Positions 39,056 to 46,768 of a stretch of 47,026 bases of DNA are shown here, piece by piece. Position 1 is the stretch's first letter; each line of letters begins with the position of its first letter. This DNA is from Verrucomicrobiota bacterium (GTDB taxonomy: Bacteria > Verrucomicrobiota > Verrucomicrobiia > Limisphaerales > VHCN01). The notes beneath the pieces are model-generated. The model worked only from the letters and a program-made list of their open reading frames with translations. It was not told where the DNA came from and did no database searches. The stretch lies in contig VHCN01000022.1 of NCBI GenBank assembly GCA_016871675.1, positions 1-47,026 of the forward strand, given 5' to 3'. Made by a program: the position numbers and the translations under genes.

Positions 39056-39841
39056 ATGAGCCTGCCCCAACTGACCGCCGCCGAGCGTGCCACCTACGAG
39101 TGGCAGATGTGGCTGCCCGGATTCGGCGAGACGGGCCAGCGCAAATTGAAGGCGGCCTCGGTGCTCATCTCGCGCGTCGGCGGGCTCGGCGGCATCGTGG
39201 CATATCAGCTTGCGGCGGCAGGCGTGGGCAGACTCGTGCTCGCGCATGCGGGCAACCTCAAGCCGAGCGACCTCAACCGGCAGCTTCTGCAGAAACATGC
39301 GCGCATCGGACTGCCGCGCATCGAGACCCTCGCCGAGCGGTTGAAGGAACTGAACCCGCGCCTCGAGATCGTCGCAGCCGGCGAGAATGTCACGGATGCG
39401 AACGCGCGGTCGCTGGTCGCGCAAGCCGACGTGGTCGTGGACGCAGCGCCGTTGTTCGAAGAACGGTTCGCCCTGAACGCCGAAGCCTTCGCACAGGGCA
39501 AGCCCATGGTCGAATGCGCGATGTTTGCGCTGGAAGCGCAGCTCACCACGTTCATTCCCGGCCGCACCGGCTGCCTGCGCTGCCTCGTCCCCGAGAAGCC
39601 CCCGCACTGGAAGCGCGAATTCCCCGTGCTCGGCGCGGTCTCCGGCACCATCGGCTGCCTCGGCGCGGTGGAAGTGGTGAAGCTCCTCACCGGGCTCGGC
39701 AAACCGCTGGCGGGCGTCCGGCTCGTAATGGACCTCGGCGCGATGGAGTTTCGCCGGCTGAGGTTTGCAGCCCGTGCCGGCTGCCCGGTTTGCGGCGAAG
39801 CGAAGAAATCGCGCCGCATTCGCGCCCGGACTACTTCGTGA
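39056..39841 (+). CDS. HesA/MoeB/ThiF-type E1-like protein
   Basis: 261 residues. The fold matches ThiF-type adenylating enzymes: VLISRVGGLGGIVAYQLAAA, GNLKPSDLNRQLLQ (the Asn-Arg-Gln), NPRLEIVAAGENVTDANARS, DVVVDAAPLFEERFALN, and zinc ligands in CLRC and CPVC. The first Gly of the usual GxGGxG loop is Arg and the acidic pair after the second strand is missing, so ATP binding may differ. From memory, a HesA-like subfamily found near nitrogen-fixation or molybdenum genes has this same variation. Its place right after a Mo-type transporter fits molybdenum-cofactor or sulfur-carrier chemistry. The end overlaps the convergent sulfatase by 11 bp. Confidence 0.85.
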   Translation: MSLPQLTAAERATYEWQMWLPGFGETGQRKLKAASVLISRVGGLGGIVAYQLAAAGVGRLVLAHAGNLKPSDLNRQLLQKHARIGLPRIETLAERLKELNPRLEIVAAGENVTDANARSLVAQADVVVDAAPLFEERFALNAEAFAQGKPMVECAMFALEAQLTTFIPGRTGCLRCLVPEKPPHWKREFPVLGAVSGTIGCLGAVEVVKLLTGLGKPLAGVRLVMDLGAMEFRRLRFAARAGCPVCGEAKKSRRIRARTTS

Positions 39842-41648
39842 GCGTGAGCGTGACCTGGCGCACGTCCATCACGCTCGCGCCGGGAATTTCAAGGGCGCGG
39901 AGCGTGAGGACTCCCCTGCCCCTTTCGAGCTGGATCGTCCCGAGGTTCAGCGGTCGAAACTCCTTCATCTGCGATTCGCCGGGCGGACGGGCGATCGTGT
40001 CCTGGTTCGTGTAGAGCGGTGGGTTCCACACGGCCGGGACTTTTCCCGTGAGCTTGCTGCGGTTGTGGCTCAACTCGACGATCGCCCCGGCGTCGGCCGC
40101 CGTGTGGAGTATGGCCACCTCGTAGTTGCCCGCCGTGGCCACTTCGACATCCCAGGTGATCTTGTCGTCCGCGGATTTCCAGTTCACGAAATAGGAGCAA
40201 TTCGGCGCGCCCGCGCTCCGCCTGATGCCGCCATGCGCGAGGCCGTCGCGCGCGGGAAGCGGCGTGATGGGAAACGTCGCGCCGCCCGCGCCAACGGGAT
40301 GCGGCCGGTCGTCGGGAGGAAGTCCCCCGCCCTTCGTCTTGCCCTTCGCGTTGGGCGCAGGCGCAGTGGTGGGTCCCAGCACATCGCGGCGCCAGTCCGC
40401 AACGGCCGCGGCAAACCTCGCGGCGACCTCGGGTTTCGCCGCGGCAATGTTCGTCGTCTGGCCGGGGTCAGCCGCCATGTCGAAGAGTTCGCCAGAATTG
40501 CTGAGTCGGTATTGCTGGGATCGCGCGCTCACGTTTCCGTTCTGGTGCGAGAAGATGGTGCGGTCCGGCCACGCGCGCCGGCGCGCCCCGAGAAGCAGGT
40601 TGGCGAGGTTCATGCCGTCGAGCGGCTTGTCGCCGGCGCGGGGGATGCCTGCAAGGGCGGTGATCGTGGGCAGCAGGTCGATGGCCCCGGCGATTTCGTG
40701 CACCTTTGTGCCGGGTTGGATGCGGGCTGGAAAACGAATGAAGCAAGTCGAGCGCACGCCGCCCTCGTCCGTCGAGCCCTTGCGGCCCTTCATCCCGCCG
40801 TTCCAACGCCACGAGTTCGGACCGTTGTCGGAGAAGTAGATCACGATGGTGTTGTCCGCGAGCTTGAGTTCATCGAGTCGTTTCAGCACGCGGCCCACGT
40901 TGCGGTCGAGATTTTCGACCATCGCGAGTGCGCAGCGCGTGTGGTCGAGATCCTCGGGGTCGCCGGCCTTCGCGCGCATGCCGACCGGCGAGTCTTTGAA
41001 CCGGTTCCAATCCTCTTGCGGCACGGCCCACGGCGAATGCGGTGTGTTGTAAGGCACGTAGCAGAACAACGGCCTGGCCTTGTTGCGCTCGATGAAGTCG
41101 AGCGCGCGCGAGGTCAGGTCGTCGGCAATGAACCCCTTTCCACGCACCGGTTGGCCATTGTGTTCGAGCGGCGGGTCGAAGTATTCGCCCCAATGGCCCG
41201 AGGTGAAGCCGTGGTATTCATCGAAGCCGCGGGCGTTCGGGTGATACGGCCACTGCGAGCCGTTGTGCCACTTGCCGAACGCCCCCGTTGCGTAACCCGC
41301 GGCCTTGAACGCATCCGCGATTGTTTTCTCGTCTGCGTTCAACCGCTCCAGGCCCGTCGAGACGCCACGCACGCCGCCACGCGGATGGTAGCGCCCCGTG
41401 AGAAACTCCGCGCGCGTCGGCGCGCACACCGGGCACACATAGAACCGGTCGAGCACCGCGCCGCCCCGACCGATGGAGTCGATGTTCGGCGTGCGAAGGT
41501 TCGTGTTGCCGTTCAGCGAGTAATCGCCCCAGCCGGAATCATCCGCGAGAAAGATGACGACATTGGGGCGGGGCGGCGGCTCGACCGGGGCTGCGGACAC
41601 ACCCGGCGCGGCGAGGCAAAGCAGCAGGAGCCATCGAAGTGCGGTCAT
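39831..41648 (-). CDS. Secreted sulfatase with C-terminal carbohydrate-binding-like domain
   Basis: 605 residues with a signal peptide (MTALRWLLLLCLAAPGVSA). The N-terminal metal motif is NVVIFLADDSGWGDYSLNG. The active-site signature is CAPTRAEFLTGRY, with the Cys to become formylglycine. KWHNGSQ and YFSDNGPNSWRWNGG also match the family. Residues about 455-605 are an extra beta-rich domain (FVNWKSADDKITWDVEVATA) resembling the CBM-like domains attached to verrucomicrobial sulfatases. It probably cleaves sulfate esters of algal or animal polysaccharide in the periplasm. It is the last gene of the minus-strand cluster and 21 bp after the next sulfatase. Confidence 0.94.
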   Translation of the reverse strand: MTALRWLLLLCLAAPGVSAAPVEPPPRPNVVIFLADDSGWGDYSLNGNTNLRTPNIDSIGRGGAVLDRFYVCPVCAPTRAEFLTGRYHPRGGVRGVSTGLERLNADEKTIADAFKAAGYATGAFGKWHNGSQWPYHPNARGFDEYHGFTSGHWGEYFDPPLEHNGQPVRGKGFIADDLTSRALDFIERNKARPLFCYVPYNTPHSPWAVPQEDWNRFKDSPVGMRAKAGDPEDLDHTRCALAMVENLDRNVGRVLKRLDELKLADNTIVIYFSDNGPNSWRWNGGMKGRKGSTDEGGVRSTCFIRFPARIQPGTKVHEIAGAIDLLPTITALAGIPRAGDKPLDGMNLANLLLGARRRAWPDRTIFSHQNGNVSARSQQYRLSNSGELFDMAADPGQTTNIAAAKPEVAARFAAAVADWRRDVLGPTTAPAPNAKGKTKGGGLPPDDRPHPVGAGGATFPITPLPARDGLAHGGIRRSAGAPNCSYFVNWKSADDKITWDVEVATAGNYEVAILHTAADAGAIVELSHNRSKLTGKVPAVWNPPLYTNQDTIARPPGESQMKEFRPLNLGTIQLERGRGVLTLRALEIPGASVMDVRQVTLTLTK

Positions 41649-41669
41649 GGTGCGGCAAGGGTTGCGGAC

Positions 41670-43058
41670 TCAATCTTTCGCCACGGCGTCACGGTCGCGC
41701 GCGGAGATCCCGTCGAGGCGGCGTTTCATCTCGGCGAGCATCTCGGGCTTCTCGGCCGCGAGGTTCTTCGTTTCACCGGGATCGGAGGCGAGGTTGAAGA
41801 GTTCCTCGGTCGGTTGCGGCGCGGCCTTGTCCGCGTTGGCCTTCTGCTTGTTCGGACGTTGGTCCACGCCTTTGCGCACGACGAGCTTCCAGTCGCCATG
41901 CCGGACCATCTGTGCGCGGTAACCGGGCTCGGCGGAATAGAGCGTCCGCACGGGCCACGCCTTCTCCTGCTGTGCGAGCACGGGCCAGATATTCGCGCCG
42001 TCCCACTTGAGGTCGCCCTCGGGCTTCGCGCCGGCGAGGGCGCAGAGCGTGGGCATCCAATCCACTGCGTGCAGTGGCGTGTGGATGTCCGCCGGCTTGA
42101 GCTTCGCGGGCCAGTGCACGAGGCCCGGCGTCCGAATGCCTCCCTCGTAAATGGTCGTCTTGTGGCCGCGCCACGGTTTGTTGTCGTTGCCGACTTTGAG
42201 TTTGCCGTAATCGCCCGGATACGGGCCGCCCTGGTTTTCGCTTGGACCATGCGCGCCGTTGTCGCTGACGAAAATCACGAGCGTGTTCTCGCGAACCTGC
42301 CTTCGGTTCAGCGCGGCAAGCACCTGCCCGACGGCATCGTCCAGGTGTGAAGCGCACGCCGCGCGGAGCCGGTCGCCGGGGTCCGCGAGGTGCGAGTTCG
42401 TCTGCAGCCACTTCTCCGGCTCGCCGATCGGCACATGGATCGCCGTGAACGGGATGTAGAGGAAGAACGGCTTCGCGCCGCGCTGCTCGATCCAATTCAC
42501 CGCCTCGCGCGCGATGAGGTCCGTCACATGGCCTTCCTCCTCGATCAGCCGGCCGTTGCGATGCCATGTGCGCTGGAAGGGTCCGTCCTTGTAGAGGTGC
42601 GTGTATGGCGTGACGCCGCCCGCGAGCGAGCCGTAGCCGTGATCGAAGCCGAACTTCTGCGGGCCTTCCTCCGGCTTCGAGCCGAGGTGCCACTTGCCCG
42701 TGATGCACGTGTCGTAGCCGGCTGACTTGAGCGCGCGGGCGACGGTGACGGTGTCCCACGGCAGCGCGCGCGGATTCTGCGCCGCGGTCACGCCGAAGCG
42801 GCTCGCGAACCGGCCCGTCATCAACGCCGCCCTCGTGGGGCTGCACATCGGGTGCACGTAGTGGGCTTCAAGCCGCACGGAGTTGTACGCGAGTTTTTCG
42901 AGGTGCGGCATCTTGTAACTCGATCCGTGCCACGGCACATCAGCCCATCCGAGGTCGTCGGCCATGAACAGCACGATGTTGGGCTGAGTCGCGGCGGACG
43001 CGCTCAACGCCGCAGCGCCAAGCGCAATGACGGTGCGAAGGAATATCGCGGGCTTCAT
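41670..43058 (-). CDS. Secreted sulfatase (arylsulfatase A-like)
   Basis: 462 residues with a signal peptide (MKPAIFLRTVIALGAAALSA). Motifs: NIVLFMADDLGWADVPWHGS, active-site CSPTRAALMTGRF with formylglycine Cys, TGKWHLGSKPEEGPQKFGFD, and the metal-binding SDNGAHGPSENQGG. The C-terminal region carries LFNLASDPGETKNLAAEKPE, the usual end of this subfamily. A good Shine-Dalgarno sequence (AGAGGAAGAA) precedes the ATG, formed by the 3' end of the deleted sulfatase gene upstream, whose TGA overlaps this ATG. It removes sulfate from an unknown glycan. Confidence 0.95.
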   Translation of the reverse strand: MKPAIFLRTVIALGAAALSASAATQPNIVLFMADDLGWADVPWHGSSYKMPHLEKLAYNSVRLEAHYVHPMCSPTRAALMTGRFASRFGVTAAQNPRALPWDTVTVARALKSAGYDTCITGKWHLGSKPEEGPQKFGFDHGYGSLAGGVTPYTHLYKDGPFQRTWHRNGRLIEEEGHVTDLIAREAVNWIEQRGAKPFFLYIPFTAIHVPIGEPEKWLQTNSHLADPGDRLRAACASHLDDAVGQVLAALNRRQVRENTLVIFVSDNGAHGPSENQGGPYPGDYGKLKVGNDNKPWRGHKTTIYEGGIRTPGLVHWPAKLKPADIHTPLHAVDWMPTLCALAGAKPEGDLKWDGANIWPVLAQQEKAWPVRTLYSAEPGYRAQMVRHGDWKLVVRKGVDQRPNKQKANADKAAPQPTEELFNLASDPGETKNLAAEKPEMLAEMKRRLDGISARDRDAVAKD

Positions 43059-43286
43059 TTCTTCTTCCTCTGTTTAGATTTCACGTAGTCGGGCCACTCG
43101 GTTTGCCTGCCCTCGGCACCGGCGAACTTCCACGCGGGCCACGTCCTTCGCGCCGAAACACGCGAGGTCGCCGTAGCCCAAGTCATCGCAAAGCACGAGC
43201 AGGATGTTGGGCGGCGACCCCGGGAAGACCGGCAACGCGGCGGCGCGAACGACCGACGCCAGCAAGACGATCCGGGTTCGCTTCAT
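43055..43286 (-). pseudogene. Internally deleted sulfatase remnant
   Basis: The first about 45 codons encode a signal peptide (MKRTRIVLLASVVRAAALPV) and the sulfatase start NILLVLCDDLGYGDLACFG. The sequence then jumps, near 43138-43146, into another frame encoding a sulfatase-like C-terminal tail (EGRQTEWPDYVKSKQRKK, stop TGA 43055-43057). About 400 residues, including the CxPSR active site, are absent, and the two pieces are out of frame by one. In the remaining frame translation runs to a stop at 43074. It was once a third sulfatase of the operon: its start overlaps the upstream stop by ATGA and its end overlaps the next ATG by ATGA. An assembly collapse is an alternative explanation. Confidence 0.8.
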
Positions 43287-44758
43287 GGATGGCTCGCTTT
43301 CGGAAACTGGGAGCGCAACAGCGCCTCGGCTTCGCGCCGCGCGGCCGCCAGTCGCGGCTCGTCCACCACGTTGACCGTCTCGGCGGGCTCGTCCTTCTCC
43401 TCATAGAGCTCGCGCGCGATGGTCTCGCCGGATTTCCAGTCGCGCCATTCGGTGTAACGCACGCGCGCCGTGCGGACGCTCACGCCCATCGCGCGCGGGA
43501 CTTTCTCGGGTTCTCGATCGAAGTAGGCCGGGCGCGGATGCTGCGTGAACGCGGCGGGCTTGACCGGCTTCGACGGGTCGTTGAGCACGGGAACGAGACT
43601 GTGGCCTTCGAGACCCGGCGGCTTGGGCAGGGCACAAAGGTCCACGAGCGTCGGAAACAGGTCCACCAGCTCCGCGAGCGCGCCCGTGCGCCGGCCCGCG
43701 TGCTTGGAACCGGGTGTCGCAATGAAGAACGGCACGCGCGCGTCGAGCTCGAAGTTGGAAGTCTTGCCCCACTGCGTGTGCTCGCCAAGGTGATAGCCGT
43801 GGTCGCCGACGAAGGTGATGATGGTGCGGTCCGCGGCGCCGCTGCGGTCGAGCGCGTCGAGCACCCTGCCAAGTTGCGCGTCGAGGTAGCTGATGTTCGC
43901 GAAGTATCCGTGGCGAATCTCGGCGACCTGCTCCGGGGTGAACGTGACTTGATTCGGCGGGATGCCGCGCAACTCGCGCCCGTCGTGGAAGGCGATGTCG
44001 GGCGCGCCCGAAGGCCGCGCGGGATTGAGCGGCGGCAGCTTCGCGCGATCGTAAAGGTCCCAGTATTTCTTCGGCGCATTGAAGGGCGCGTGCGGTTTCC
44101 AGAACCCGACGGCGAGGAAGAACGGCCGGTCCTTCACCTCGTCCAGCACACGCACCGCCTCGGCGGCGACGCGCCCGTCGTAGTAAGCCTCGTCCGGCAC
44201 GTCGCGGCATTCGTAGAGCGGCACGGACGTGTATTGGCGCGGCGAGGGCGAGGCGACGTTCGGCGGCAGCGGACCCGTCACGCGCGCATCGTCCTCGCCG
44301 TGCGTGGCGTAGTGCAGGAATTCCGGCGCGCTCCACGAGCGGGCGTCGCCCTTCTCCTTCGTGTGCCAGTTGTGGAAAATCTTGCCGACGCAGCGGGTGT
44401 GGTAGCCGTGCTCCTTGAACCACAGCGGCAGCGTGGTCGCGTCGGGATTCAACTCCCGGAAATGCGTTCCGTTGTTCCAAATCCGCAGCGTGTCGGGCCT
44501 CCGCCCGGTGAGCATCGAGGAACGCGACGGGTTGCAGACAGCCTGCTGGCAATACGCACGGTCGAATTGCACGCCGCGCCGCGCGAGCCGCGTGAGGTTC
44601 GGCGTGAGCGCGGGCGACCCGTAACTGGCGAGGTCCGGGCGAAAGTCATCCGCCATGATGAACAACACATTGGGCTTCGTCGTCGCGCCCACGGAGGTGA
44701 AACCGCCAAGCGCGCAGAGGAGCCCGGCGCGAAGGAACAGAGATGTGGCCGGGCGCAT
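43283..44758 (-). CDS. Secreted sulfatase (iduronate-2-sulfatase-like)
   Basis: 491 residues with a signal peptide (MRPATSLFLRAGLLCALGGF). NVLFIMADDFRPDLASYGSP with Asp-Asp, active-site CNPSRSSMLTGRRPDTLRIW, and the long iduronate-sulfatase-type insert (VGKIFHNWHTKEKGDARSWS, GFWKPHAPFNAPKKYWDLYD) point to the iduronate-2-sulfatase branch. GDHGYHLGEHTQWGKTSNFE follows. Members act on sulfated uronate residues or related glycans. It is preceded by an 11-bp gap after the thioredoxin-like gene and ends by ATGA overlap with the deleted sulfatase, so the cluster is probably one operon. Confidence 0.95.
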   Translation of the reverse strand: MRPATSLFLRAGLLCALGGFTSVGATTKPNVLFIMADDFRPDLASYGSPALTPNLTRLARRGVQFDRAYCQQAVCNPSRSSMLTGRRPDTLRIWNNGTHFRELNPDATTLPLWFKEHGYHTRCVGKIFHNWHTKEKGDARSWSAPEFLHYATHGEDDARVTGPLPPNVASPSPRQYTSVPLYECRDVPDEAYYDGRVAAEAVRVLDEVKDRPFFLAVGFWKPHAPFNAPKKYWDLYDRAKLPPLNPARPSGAPDIAFHDGRELRGIPPNQVTFTPEQVAEIRHGYFANISYLDAQLGRVLDALDRSGAADRTIITFVGDHGYHLGEHTQWGKTSNFELDARVPFFIATPGSKHAGRRTGALAELVDLFPTLVDLCALPKPPGLEGHSLVPVLNDPSKPVKPAAFTQHPRPAYFDREPEKVPRAMGVSVRTARVRYTEWRDWKSGETIARELYEEKDEPAETVNVVDEPRLAAARREAEALLRSQFPKASHP

Positions 44759-44769
44759 AAGGCGATGAG

Positions 44770-46065
44770 TTAGCGGCGATCCTTCGGTTCGAGATACGCC
44801 GTCGGATTGTCGCGCGCGCCACGTGGGTAGAGCTTCTCGGCCGCGGTGGGATTCGCAACGAGCTCGAAGGCGATGCCGAGCGGATAAGCCCCGCGCCGAG
44901 GTGTGATGACGCCATTCGCATCCCGGGGAAGGCCGGACGCCATGCCGAGCGCGACCATGTCAAAGCGCGCAAACTTCCCGGCGCGCCGGTCGAATTCCAG
45001 CAGGCCGAACAAGCGTGGCTCGTAGCTCGACGGTTCGTCACGCCCGGATTCCGTCAGCGACGCGGAGCCGTCGAGCTGCATCGAGAGCCTGTCGGCGCTG
45101 ACCTTGGTGATGGCAAGCGCGAACCTCCCTGCGCCGGGTTGTGACCGTGTGAAGGCCGCGCTTTCGGAAAAGCCGCGGCACGGGTCGAGGTGAAAGCGCA
45201 TCAACCGCAGCGCGAACGAAACCGGGACAGCTTGCGTCTCGCCGACTCGCGGATCCACAGGCACGAGCGCCCGCCACTCGGACTCGGGTATCCACATGAA
45301 GTCGTTGTGCGCCTCGGCGAACCGCTCGGCCGCCGATGTGCCCGTGCCCGCGATGAAGTCAGCGTGTCTGGCGTAGCGAAGAGCACCACTTTCCTCCGCG
45401 CCAAAGTGACGGTTGAACACGCGGATGACGAGCGCGCCCGCGGGCAGCACAAGCGCCGCGCGTTTCGCATCCATCGGACCCGTGACGTCCACCGACAAGC
45501 CACCGGGCTTGCGTTCGCTTTCAGGCAGCGCGTCCCACGACTTGAGCGCCGAGCGGAGGAACTGCTCCATTCCCTGGCCCGGACCGTTGACACTCGTGAG
45601 CCGCCGTCCGTCCGCGGTGACGACGCACACCGAACCGGCCGCCGTGGTCGTGACGGACTTTGTCGCGCGGATGAAGTCACCGTCGGCGTCCTTGTATTCG
45701 CCGGACTCCTTGCGGGCATCGAGTGCGACCGCGATGAAGCGGTCGCGGACGAGTTGCACCACTTCCTCCTTCCAGATGGACGGCGCACGGCCGGCCGAAG
45801 CCGCCGCTCAGCAAACACCGATGGGCGCGCCGCCGGCCCCGGCCCAGATGAGAATGGGCTTGCCCACGGCTGCCGCGCGCTGGCGCGCCTCGGTGAGGCT
45901 GAGCGTCCACGGGATCTGCCAGAATCGCTGCTCGCCGGCCTGCGGGCGAATCTGCCGGTGCAAATAGTCAAATCGCCCAGGCGCGAGCCTGTCCGCCTTG
46001 GCCGCGGCAAAACCGTTCGCGCCATTCAGCGCGATGAGGGCAAGAAGCGCGAATGGATGACGCAT
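44770..46065 (-). CDS. Secreted thioredoxin-like protein with in-frame TGA (possible selenocysteine or nonsense mutation)
   Basis: From ATG 46065 there are 85 codons with a signal peptide (MRHPFALLALIALNGANGFA) and a thioredoxin-fold-like start (ARQRAAAVGKPILIWAGAGG). Then a TGC Cys85 codon is followed directly by TGA at 45808-45810. The same frame continues without any other stop for 345 codons to 44770, giving VVQLVRDRFIAVALDARKES, a thioredoxin-like continuation, and a long C-terminal domain. Read through, the protein has 431 residues with a Cys-Sec pair. Alternatives are a nonsense mutation, a sequencing error, or restart at GTG 45762, which lies behind AAGGAGG. No canonical SECIS hairpin was recognised after the TGA. 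The gene is 11 bp upstream of a sulfatase. Confidence 0.65.
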
Positions 46066-46108: not shown

Positions 46109-46768
46109 TCATTTTGCCGCGACCGGCCCGGCGGCGGCTTGCCAGGCCTTCAAGTCCGACAGCAACAGCGACTCTCCGCGCACCACGAAGCGGTAGCCGG
46201 TCTTGTCCACGTCGAGTTCCGGGTGGCTGGCTTCGAGCTTCGCACCGTTGTCGGCCTGCACGCAGACCTTCGAGCCGTGAAACTCGATGAGCACGGTGTG
46301 CCACTTGCCCGGCGCGAACTTGGCGGCTGTCCTGCCGAGCGGCACGGGCTTGGACGCCGGATCGTTCTTGTCCTTGTCCTTCGTGATGGTCAGCGCCTCC
46401 TCGCCGAGGGCGATGCGGAAGAGGTGGCCCTTCGCGTGGTTGAGGCTCACGTTGAATCCCTTCGCGCCGTCCGCCTTGAAGGAGAAGCTCAGAACCGCGT
46501 CGCGGATCGGGCGGGCAAGCGTCAACACGGCAGCGTGTTCGTCGGACGCCTTTTCCTTGCCGATGACCGCCCCGTCGCGCACCTGCCAGTCGCCCTTGTT
46601 CGCAACCCAGCCCTTCGGGAGCGAAGTCCCGCTGAATTTTTCGTCGGCGATGAGCTTGCCGGGCTTGACGAGCAGGGGCTTGAGGTCGGCGCCTTTCTCC
46701 GCGAACGCGCCCACGGTGAGGAGCGCGAGCGCGGTGGCGGACAGAAGGGCCAGAGTGGTGGGCTTCAT
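46109..46768 (-). CDS. Secreted LamG/DUF1080-like domain protein
   Basis: 219 residues with a signal peptide (MKPTTLALLSATALALLTVG). The domain has the DUF1080-like LamG features DEKFSGTSLPKGWVANKGDW, VLTLARPIRDAVLSFSFKAD, GKWHTVLIEFHGSKVCVQAD and YRFVVRGESLLLSDLKAW. There are no obvious hydrolase residues, so carbohydrate binding is as likely as hydrolysis. ATG 46768 is selected for the signal peptide. It sits between a partial sulfatase and the TGA-containing thioredoxin-like gene in the minus-strand cluster. Confidence 0.82.
   Translation of the reverse strand: MKPTTLALLSATALALLTVGAFAEKGADLKPLLVKPGKLIADEKFSGTSLPKGWVANKGDWQVRDGAVIGKEKASDEHAAVLTLARPIRDAVLSFSFKADGAKGFNVSLNHAKGHLFRIALGEEALTITKDKDKNDPASKPVPLGRTAAKFAPGKWHTVLIEFHGSKVCVQADNGAKLEASHPELDVDKTGYRFVVRGESLLLSDLKAWQAAAGPVAAK

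Follow-up and report, generated by a model that had tools for sequence, protein, structure and literature searches.

A putative selenocysteine codon in a thioredoxin-like gene of a Verrucomicrobiota bacterium and the candidate selenoprotein family around it

An in-frame TGA and its surroundings

Does the TGA at positions 45808-45810 on the minus strand terminate a short protein, or is it read as selenocysteine (Sec) inside a longer one? The window, i.e. the whole 47,026-nt stretch of DNA that was analysed, carries on this strand a frame that starts at ATG 46065, encodes a hydrophobic leader and GKPILIWAGAGGAPIGVC, and then reaches the TGA within the motif GAPIGVC-TGA. The sequence-only reading had placed TGC and then TGA in the frame from 46065 with 345 codons open after them, and inspection of the minus strand bears this out, the open codons running to the TAA at 44770-44772. 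With the TGA taken as Sec the gene covers 44770-46065 (minus strand) and encodes 431 residues, in which Cys85 (codon TGC, 45811-45813, minus strand) directly precedes Sec86 and is its putative partner, as judged from the frame and from the homologues. The hydrophobic N-terminus, MRHPFALLALIALNGANGFAAA (46000-46065, minus strand), reads as a probable signal peptide, and the product is hence probably exported.

The TGA might instead be a true stop, followed by a separate 330-residue frame that restarts at a GTG codon. The AAGGAGG motif (45765-45771) and the in-frame GTG (45760-45762) which the earlier reading had offered as a possible restart are indeed both present (45760-45771 on the minus strand as a whole). 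However the closest relative, L023, has no AAGGAGG at the matching place, and this internal start is probably unused; together with the arguments given below, we consider a restart very improbable. Alternatively a standard amino acid, for instance Trp or Cys, could be inserted at the TGA through reassignment or readthrough, and a changed code would give a similar open frame. But the upstream neighbour gene is terminated by a TGA of its own (46109-46111), so TGA also serves as a stop here, and this reading is in our view extremely improbable.

A sulfatase gene begins 11 nt downstream of the selenoprotein gene, as the first of three adjacent sulfatase-like genes (39831-44758, minus strand), a context which is absent in the closest relative. 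In a relative that is about 59-60% identical, the neighbours are DUF1549/DUF1553 and glucose/sorbosone dehydrogenase genes. Across the family we found no conserved neighbour genes beyond family members themselves and off-frame artefacts.

Conservation of the TGA among relatives

We translated the loci with TGA as U and aligned them. A paralogue that is about 37-39% identical and has TGA at the same codon lies on another contig (C63) of the window genome, and the homologue of about 59-60% identity in a second genome has the same TGA. The family is present in 17 of the 320 genomes of the order, namely the window genome and 16 others, and there too the codon is TGA. When 84,980 species genomes were scanned with a profile from a narrower alignment, in which the Sec position was masked as X, 199 relatives were obtained, and the best 80 of these 199 come from Planctomycetota, Verrucomicrobiota, Armatimonadota, Poribacteria and one Chloroflexi MAG, with TGA at the Sec column in 80/80. 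In a Planctomycetota sample the family was found in 85 of 294 genomes, nearly always with one in-frame TGA. A phylum-wide search in the window's own phylum returned four genomes only, two of them with plain CHWC DUF255 proteins, and no homologue was found in the plasmid collection.

In the final tally of 130 distinct loci, the window excluded, the column is Sec in 125, Ser in four, Asp in one and Cys in none. A TGA kept at one codon, with the coding sequence conserved on both sides, in 125/130 homologues is far beyond chance. It is specifically TGA, rather than any stop, that is kept in these 125 relatives across several phyla, which argues against a true stop with a restart. The same observation bears on a sequencing error or a pseudogene, where the TGA would be an artefact or a sign of decay: an assembly of this metagenome type can contain errors at single bases, but the TGA recurs in the paralogue and in 125 independent relatives, and the homologues refute this explanation, whose probability we regard as next to nil. 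Cys forms at the Sec column are the usual support for a selenoprotein, although they do not strictly define one. The earlier suggestion that relatives should show either Cys or TGA at this column was thus borne out for TGA and failed for Cys, while the ordinary residues that would have spoken against Sec are confined to five of the 130 relatives.

The commonest motif is GHPLGCTU-NNG, with the variants GAPIGVCU, GAPAAGCU, GHPLCAGU, GHPLCNTU, GHPLANTU and DDTRCU. A divergent subfamily (L038, L044, L046, L048 and L175) carries DDTRCU-VFAG, or GDTRCU in L046, with TGA at the column. A Cys lies at -1, -2 or -3 from Sec in 121 of the 125 Sec relatives (-2 in 109, -1 in eight and -3 in four); among the remaining four, L171 (GHPCAVVU) has it at -4, and the other three lack a Cys in the four residues ahead of Sec. 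The Cys-Sec pair proposed from the window thus holds in so far as an upstream Cys near Sec is usual, but not as a fixed CU, the arrangement being mostly CxU and sometimes CU or CxxU. The second Cys of a CxxC motif (Sec+3) is absent in all 125. The few full-length Planctomycetota copies without the TGA have Asp (GHPLGTGD) or Ser (GHPLGATS, GNPLG..APS), and all five Ser/Asp relatives also have no nearby Cys. Sec and non-Sec copies stand in tandem in G825 (L171; contig C37, 8500-12500) and on one contig, a few kilobases apart, in G876 (C321); in both cases the non-Sec copy is without a nearby Cys.

SECIS hairpin and selenocysteine machinery

The sequence-only reading had seen GC-rich hairpins just after the TGA and none at the usual SECIS distance. 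This does not hold, as a hairpin at 45778-45796 (minus strand) fits the published rules for bacterial SECIS elements, i.e. a loop of 3-9 nt, a stem of 4-16 bp, a G within the first two loop positions, a distance of 16-37 nt from the UGA and an MFE of at most -7.5 (PMC13188914). Its loop CGUGC (45785-45789) is 5 nt long with G at position 2 and lies 18 nt after the UGA, and the hairpin has -8.8 kcal/mol when isolated with 3 flanking nt. The stem, 4 bp and a further 2 bp past a C.U mismatch, is weaker than most family hairpins. For this single gene the hairpin does not stand out clearly from synonymous resamples, of which 28% are as stable, and over 57 nt the minimum-energy fold of the window differs from the SECIS hairpin. 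The close relative L023 has the hairpin with all seven pairs.

Across the family, with positions numbered from the T of the TGA (position 0), the stem is formed by 14-20 and 26-32 and encloses a loop of five bases, usually CGUGN. Over 96 genes the mean pairing is 5.93 of 7, versus 4.37 when synonymous codons were resampled according to the usage of the gene in question, and 2.2-3.2 in shifted partner registers. In 79/96 genes the loop Arg is encoded by CGT, a codon that makes up only 14% of the Arg codons downstream. By parsimony on the protein tree, double compensatory changes account for 8/10 at pair 17-29, 6/12 at pair 19-27 and 3/4 at pair 20-26. Pairs 17-29, 20-26 and 14-32 link third codon positions, 14-32 being weak with many unpaired states. 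Thus the bacterial SECIS check that had been proposed gives a fitting hairpin in the window, and pairing and covariation across the family. A hairpin with compensatory changes after the TGA argues against a stop with a restart, and pairing specific to Sec decoding argues against reassignment. In the LANTU/LCNTU subfamily (L036, L040, L041, L042 and L047) the register fits poorly, with 4-5 of 7 pairs at these loci and 4.0-4.3 of 7 for the LANTU and LCNTU groups, and their SECIS may be shifted or longer. An Rfam scan of the region gave sub-threshold matches only, which we take as chance.

The window genome (3.6 Mb, 97% complete) encodes all four components whose presence had been proposed as a check. 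selB lies on contig C27 and scores 311.8 bits across the whole frame (cut-off 242), tRNA-Sec with a TCA anticodon (UCA in the RNA) scores 68.6 bits (cut-off 47) and selA 472 bits, and selD carries an in-frame TGA of its own, consistent with a Sec-containing SelD. selC, selD and selA are clustered (G000, contig C44, 19072-21659; L009, L017 and L018), with selB elsewhere on another contig. Among the 320 genomes of the order, 91 have selA; it is present in 15 of the 17 family genomes and in 76 of the 303 others (Fisher p 2e-7, with kinship ignored), and the two family genomes without it are 73% and 50% complete. This higher frequency of SelA in family genomes than in their kin again argues against reassignment. 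Of ten further family genomes, nine also have selA, and the exception is a Chloroflexi MAG. In this Chloroflexi-labelled MAG, where a Sec family member (L117) is present and no selA was found, the contig is possibly misbinned or the genome incomplete.

Based on the conserved codon, the hairpin and the machinery, the TGA at 45808-45810 is very probably a selenocysteine codon and the gene a selenoprotein gene.

Predicted fold, relation to known families and proposed mechanism

The AlphaFold2 model, built with 51 sequences (pLDDT 82, pTM 0.86), places residues 46-182 (45520-45930, minus strand) in a thioredoxin fold, which a stop with a restart would cut in two. VIA-align gives Z 12.2 to 3f9u, the C-terminal domain of a DsbD-like protein, and Z of about 10-11 to AGR3, ERp19, DsbH and the Thioredox_DsbH protein 7tkv. 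Pfam Thioredoxin_7 matches the window protein weakly, with 14.7 bits against a gathering score of 27, and a PDB sequence search gave nothing credible. Profile alignment to the two CHWC DUF255 proteins from the phylum-wide search matches the Sec column to the first Cys of CHWC. The place where a thioredoxin-like redox motif had been expected from the sequence thus lies in a predicted thioredoxin fold, with Sec at the first-Cys position.

The C-terminal domain (residues 205-431; 44773-45453, minus strand) is predicted to be beta-rich (pLDDT 84, pTM 0.83) and has conserved Arg, His, Asp and Glu residues in the pattern R-x-x-R-x-H...D-x-x-R-G-E. It has no match in Pfam, and its best VIA Z among PDB structures is 7.0, a level that may mean only a common arrangement. 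Since there is no confident fold match, we make no fold-family claim for this domain.

None of the scanned members passes the cut-off of any Pfam or NCBIfam model. The nearest models are those of the VPGUxxT families NF041383 and NF041382, which resemble ours in having a thioredoxin-like domain with an active-site Sec; 11 and 2 of 25 members, respectively, match them weakly, with a best E of about 1e-3. But member L025 reaches only 17.6 bits with NF041383, whose cut-off is 275, the window protein gives no match, and our family differs in its motif GHPLGCTU-NNG and its extra C-terminal domain. The Thioredoxin_7/DsbD C-terminal-like and Thioredox_DsbH (DUF255) proteins share the predicted fold and are the closest structures, with our Sec at the place of their first CxxC Cys. 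In contrast to Thioredoxin_7/DsbH, the present family lacks the second Cys (125/125) and has an added upstream Cys and the extra C-terminal domain. A 2026 catalogue lists CxU/CU selenoproteins, such as UshA-like NF041198, thioredoxin-like Sec.1 PF13192 and KCU-star NF033934 (PMC13188914). Like our family these have a Cys shortly before Sec, presumably as a redox pair, but the scanned members gave no profile match to them, and the Cys position varies in our family. Trx7/PDZ (NF041199) and GOS_C (NF045500) are also selenoproteins with a Thioredoxin-7 or thioredoxin-like fold, but yielded no match with an E of 1 or lower and have the motifs CxxU and UxxC. Neither the motif nor the architecture described here appears in the May 2026 catalogue, which covers 119 families and subfamilies of prokaryotic selenoproteins (PMC13188914). 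We found no paper naming the motif, although a supplementary list in PMC4807772 may include a Planctomycetes member. As the members fall below the Pfam and NCBIfam cut-offs, are absent from the catalogue and are named in no paper that we found, we call this a new family, and our best reading from sequence is that it would be a Sec-obligate thioredoxin-like selenoprotein family.

We propose that SelB and tRNA-Sec would decode the TGA at 45808-45810, guided by the SECIS inside the coding sequence, and that the exported product would have two domains, an N-terminal thioredoxin fold followed by the beta-rich domain. Sec would occupy the position of the nucleophilic first Cys of CxxC, and its selenol could attack a disulfide, a peroxide or another oxidised group. 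A selenenylsulfide between Sec and the upstream Cys (Cys85 here), replacing the missing second Cys of CxxC, is somewhat favoured as the next step. It would not be universal, as a Cys is missing from the four residues before Sec in 3/125 Sec relatives. An external thiol system would then reset the selenenylsulfide, and the C-terminal domain may position a substrate or partner through its conserved residues. For thioredoxin-fold proteins that carry Sec in place of the first Cys, we know of no description of a shifting upstream Cys as the resolving residue.

An alternative hypothesis could be that the protein is a selenoprotein whose thioredoxin domain is a non-disulfide enzyme or binds a metal or selenium, in which case Sec and the upstream Cys would serve as ligands. 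The drift of the Cys among -1, -2 and -3, the missing second CxxC Cys in 125/125 and the joint loss of both residues in the non-Sec relatives, which keep the fold region, would fit such ligands. But the first-Cys position of a thioredoxin fold, where Sec is found here, is the classic site of a redox nucleophile, and the three Sec relatives without a Cys in the four residues before Sec do not fit a ligand pair either. We consider this alternative rather unlikely.

Returning to the redox proposal, the fuller picture would be a new family, widespread in Planctomycetota and Verrucomicrobiota, in which Sec is obligate, never replaced by Cys and lost only together with its partner Cys, and in which a shifting upstream Cys resolves the reaction; we hold the chances of this whole picture to be about even. 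The non-Sec copies would be non-redox leftovers, in some cases located in tandem with a Sec copy. The absence of Cys forms suggests either a reaction in which Cys fails or a family limited to Sec-decoding lineages.

Gene callers that take TGA only as a stop would cut the genes of this family, which occurs in about 29% of the sampled Planctomycetota genomes and whose members are likely annotated there as short fragments. Families that use Sec and have no Cys forms can help to address why selenium is retained, and the tandem Sec and non-Sec copies, together with the drifting Cys partner, provide natural variants for testing this retention directly.
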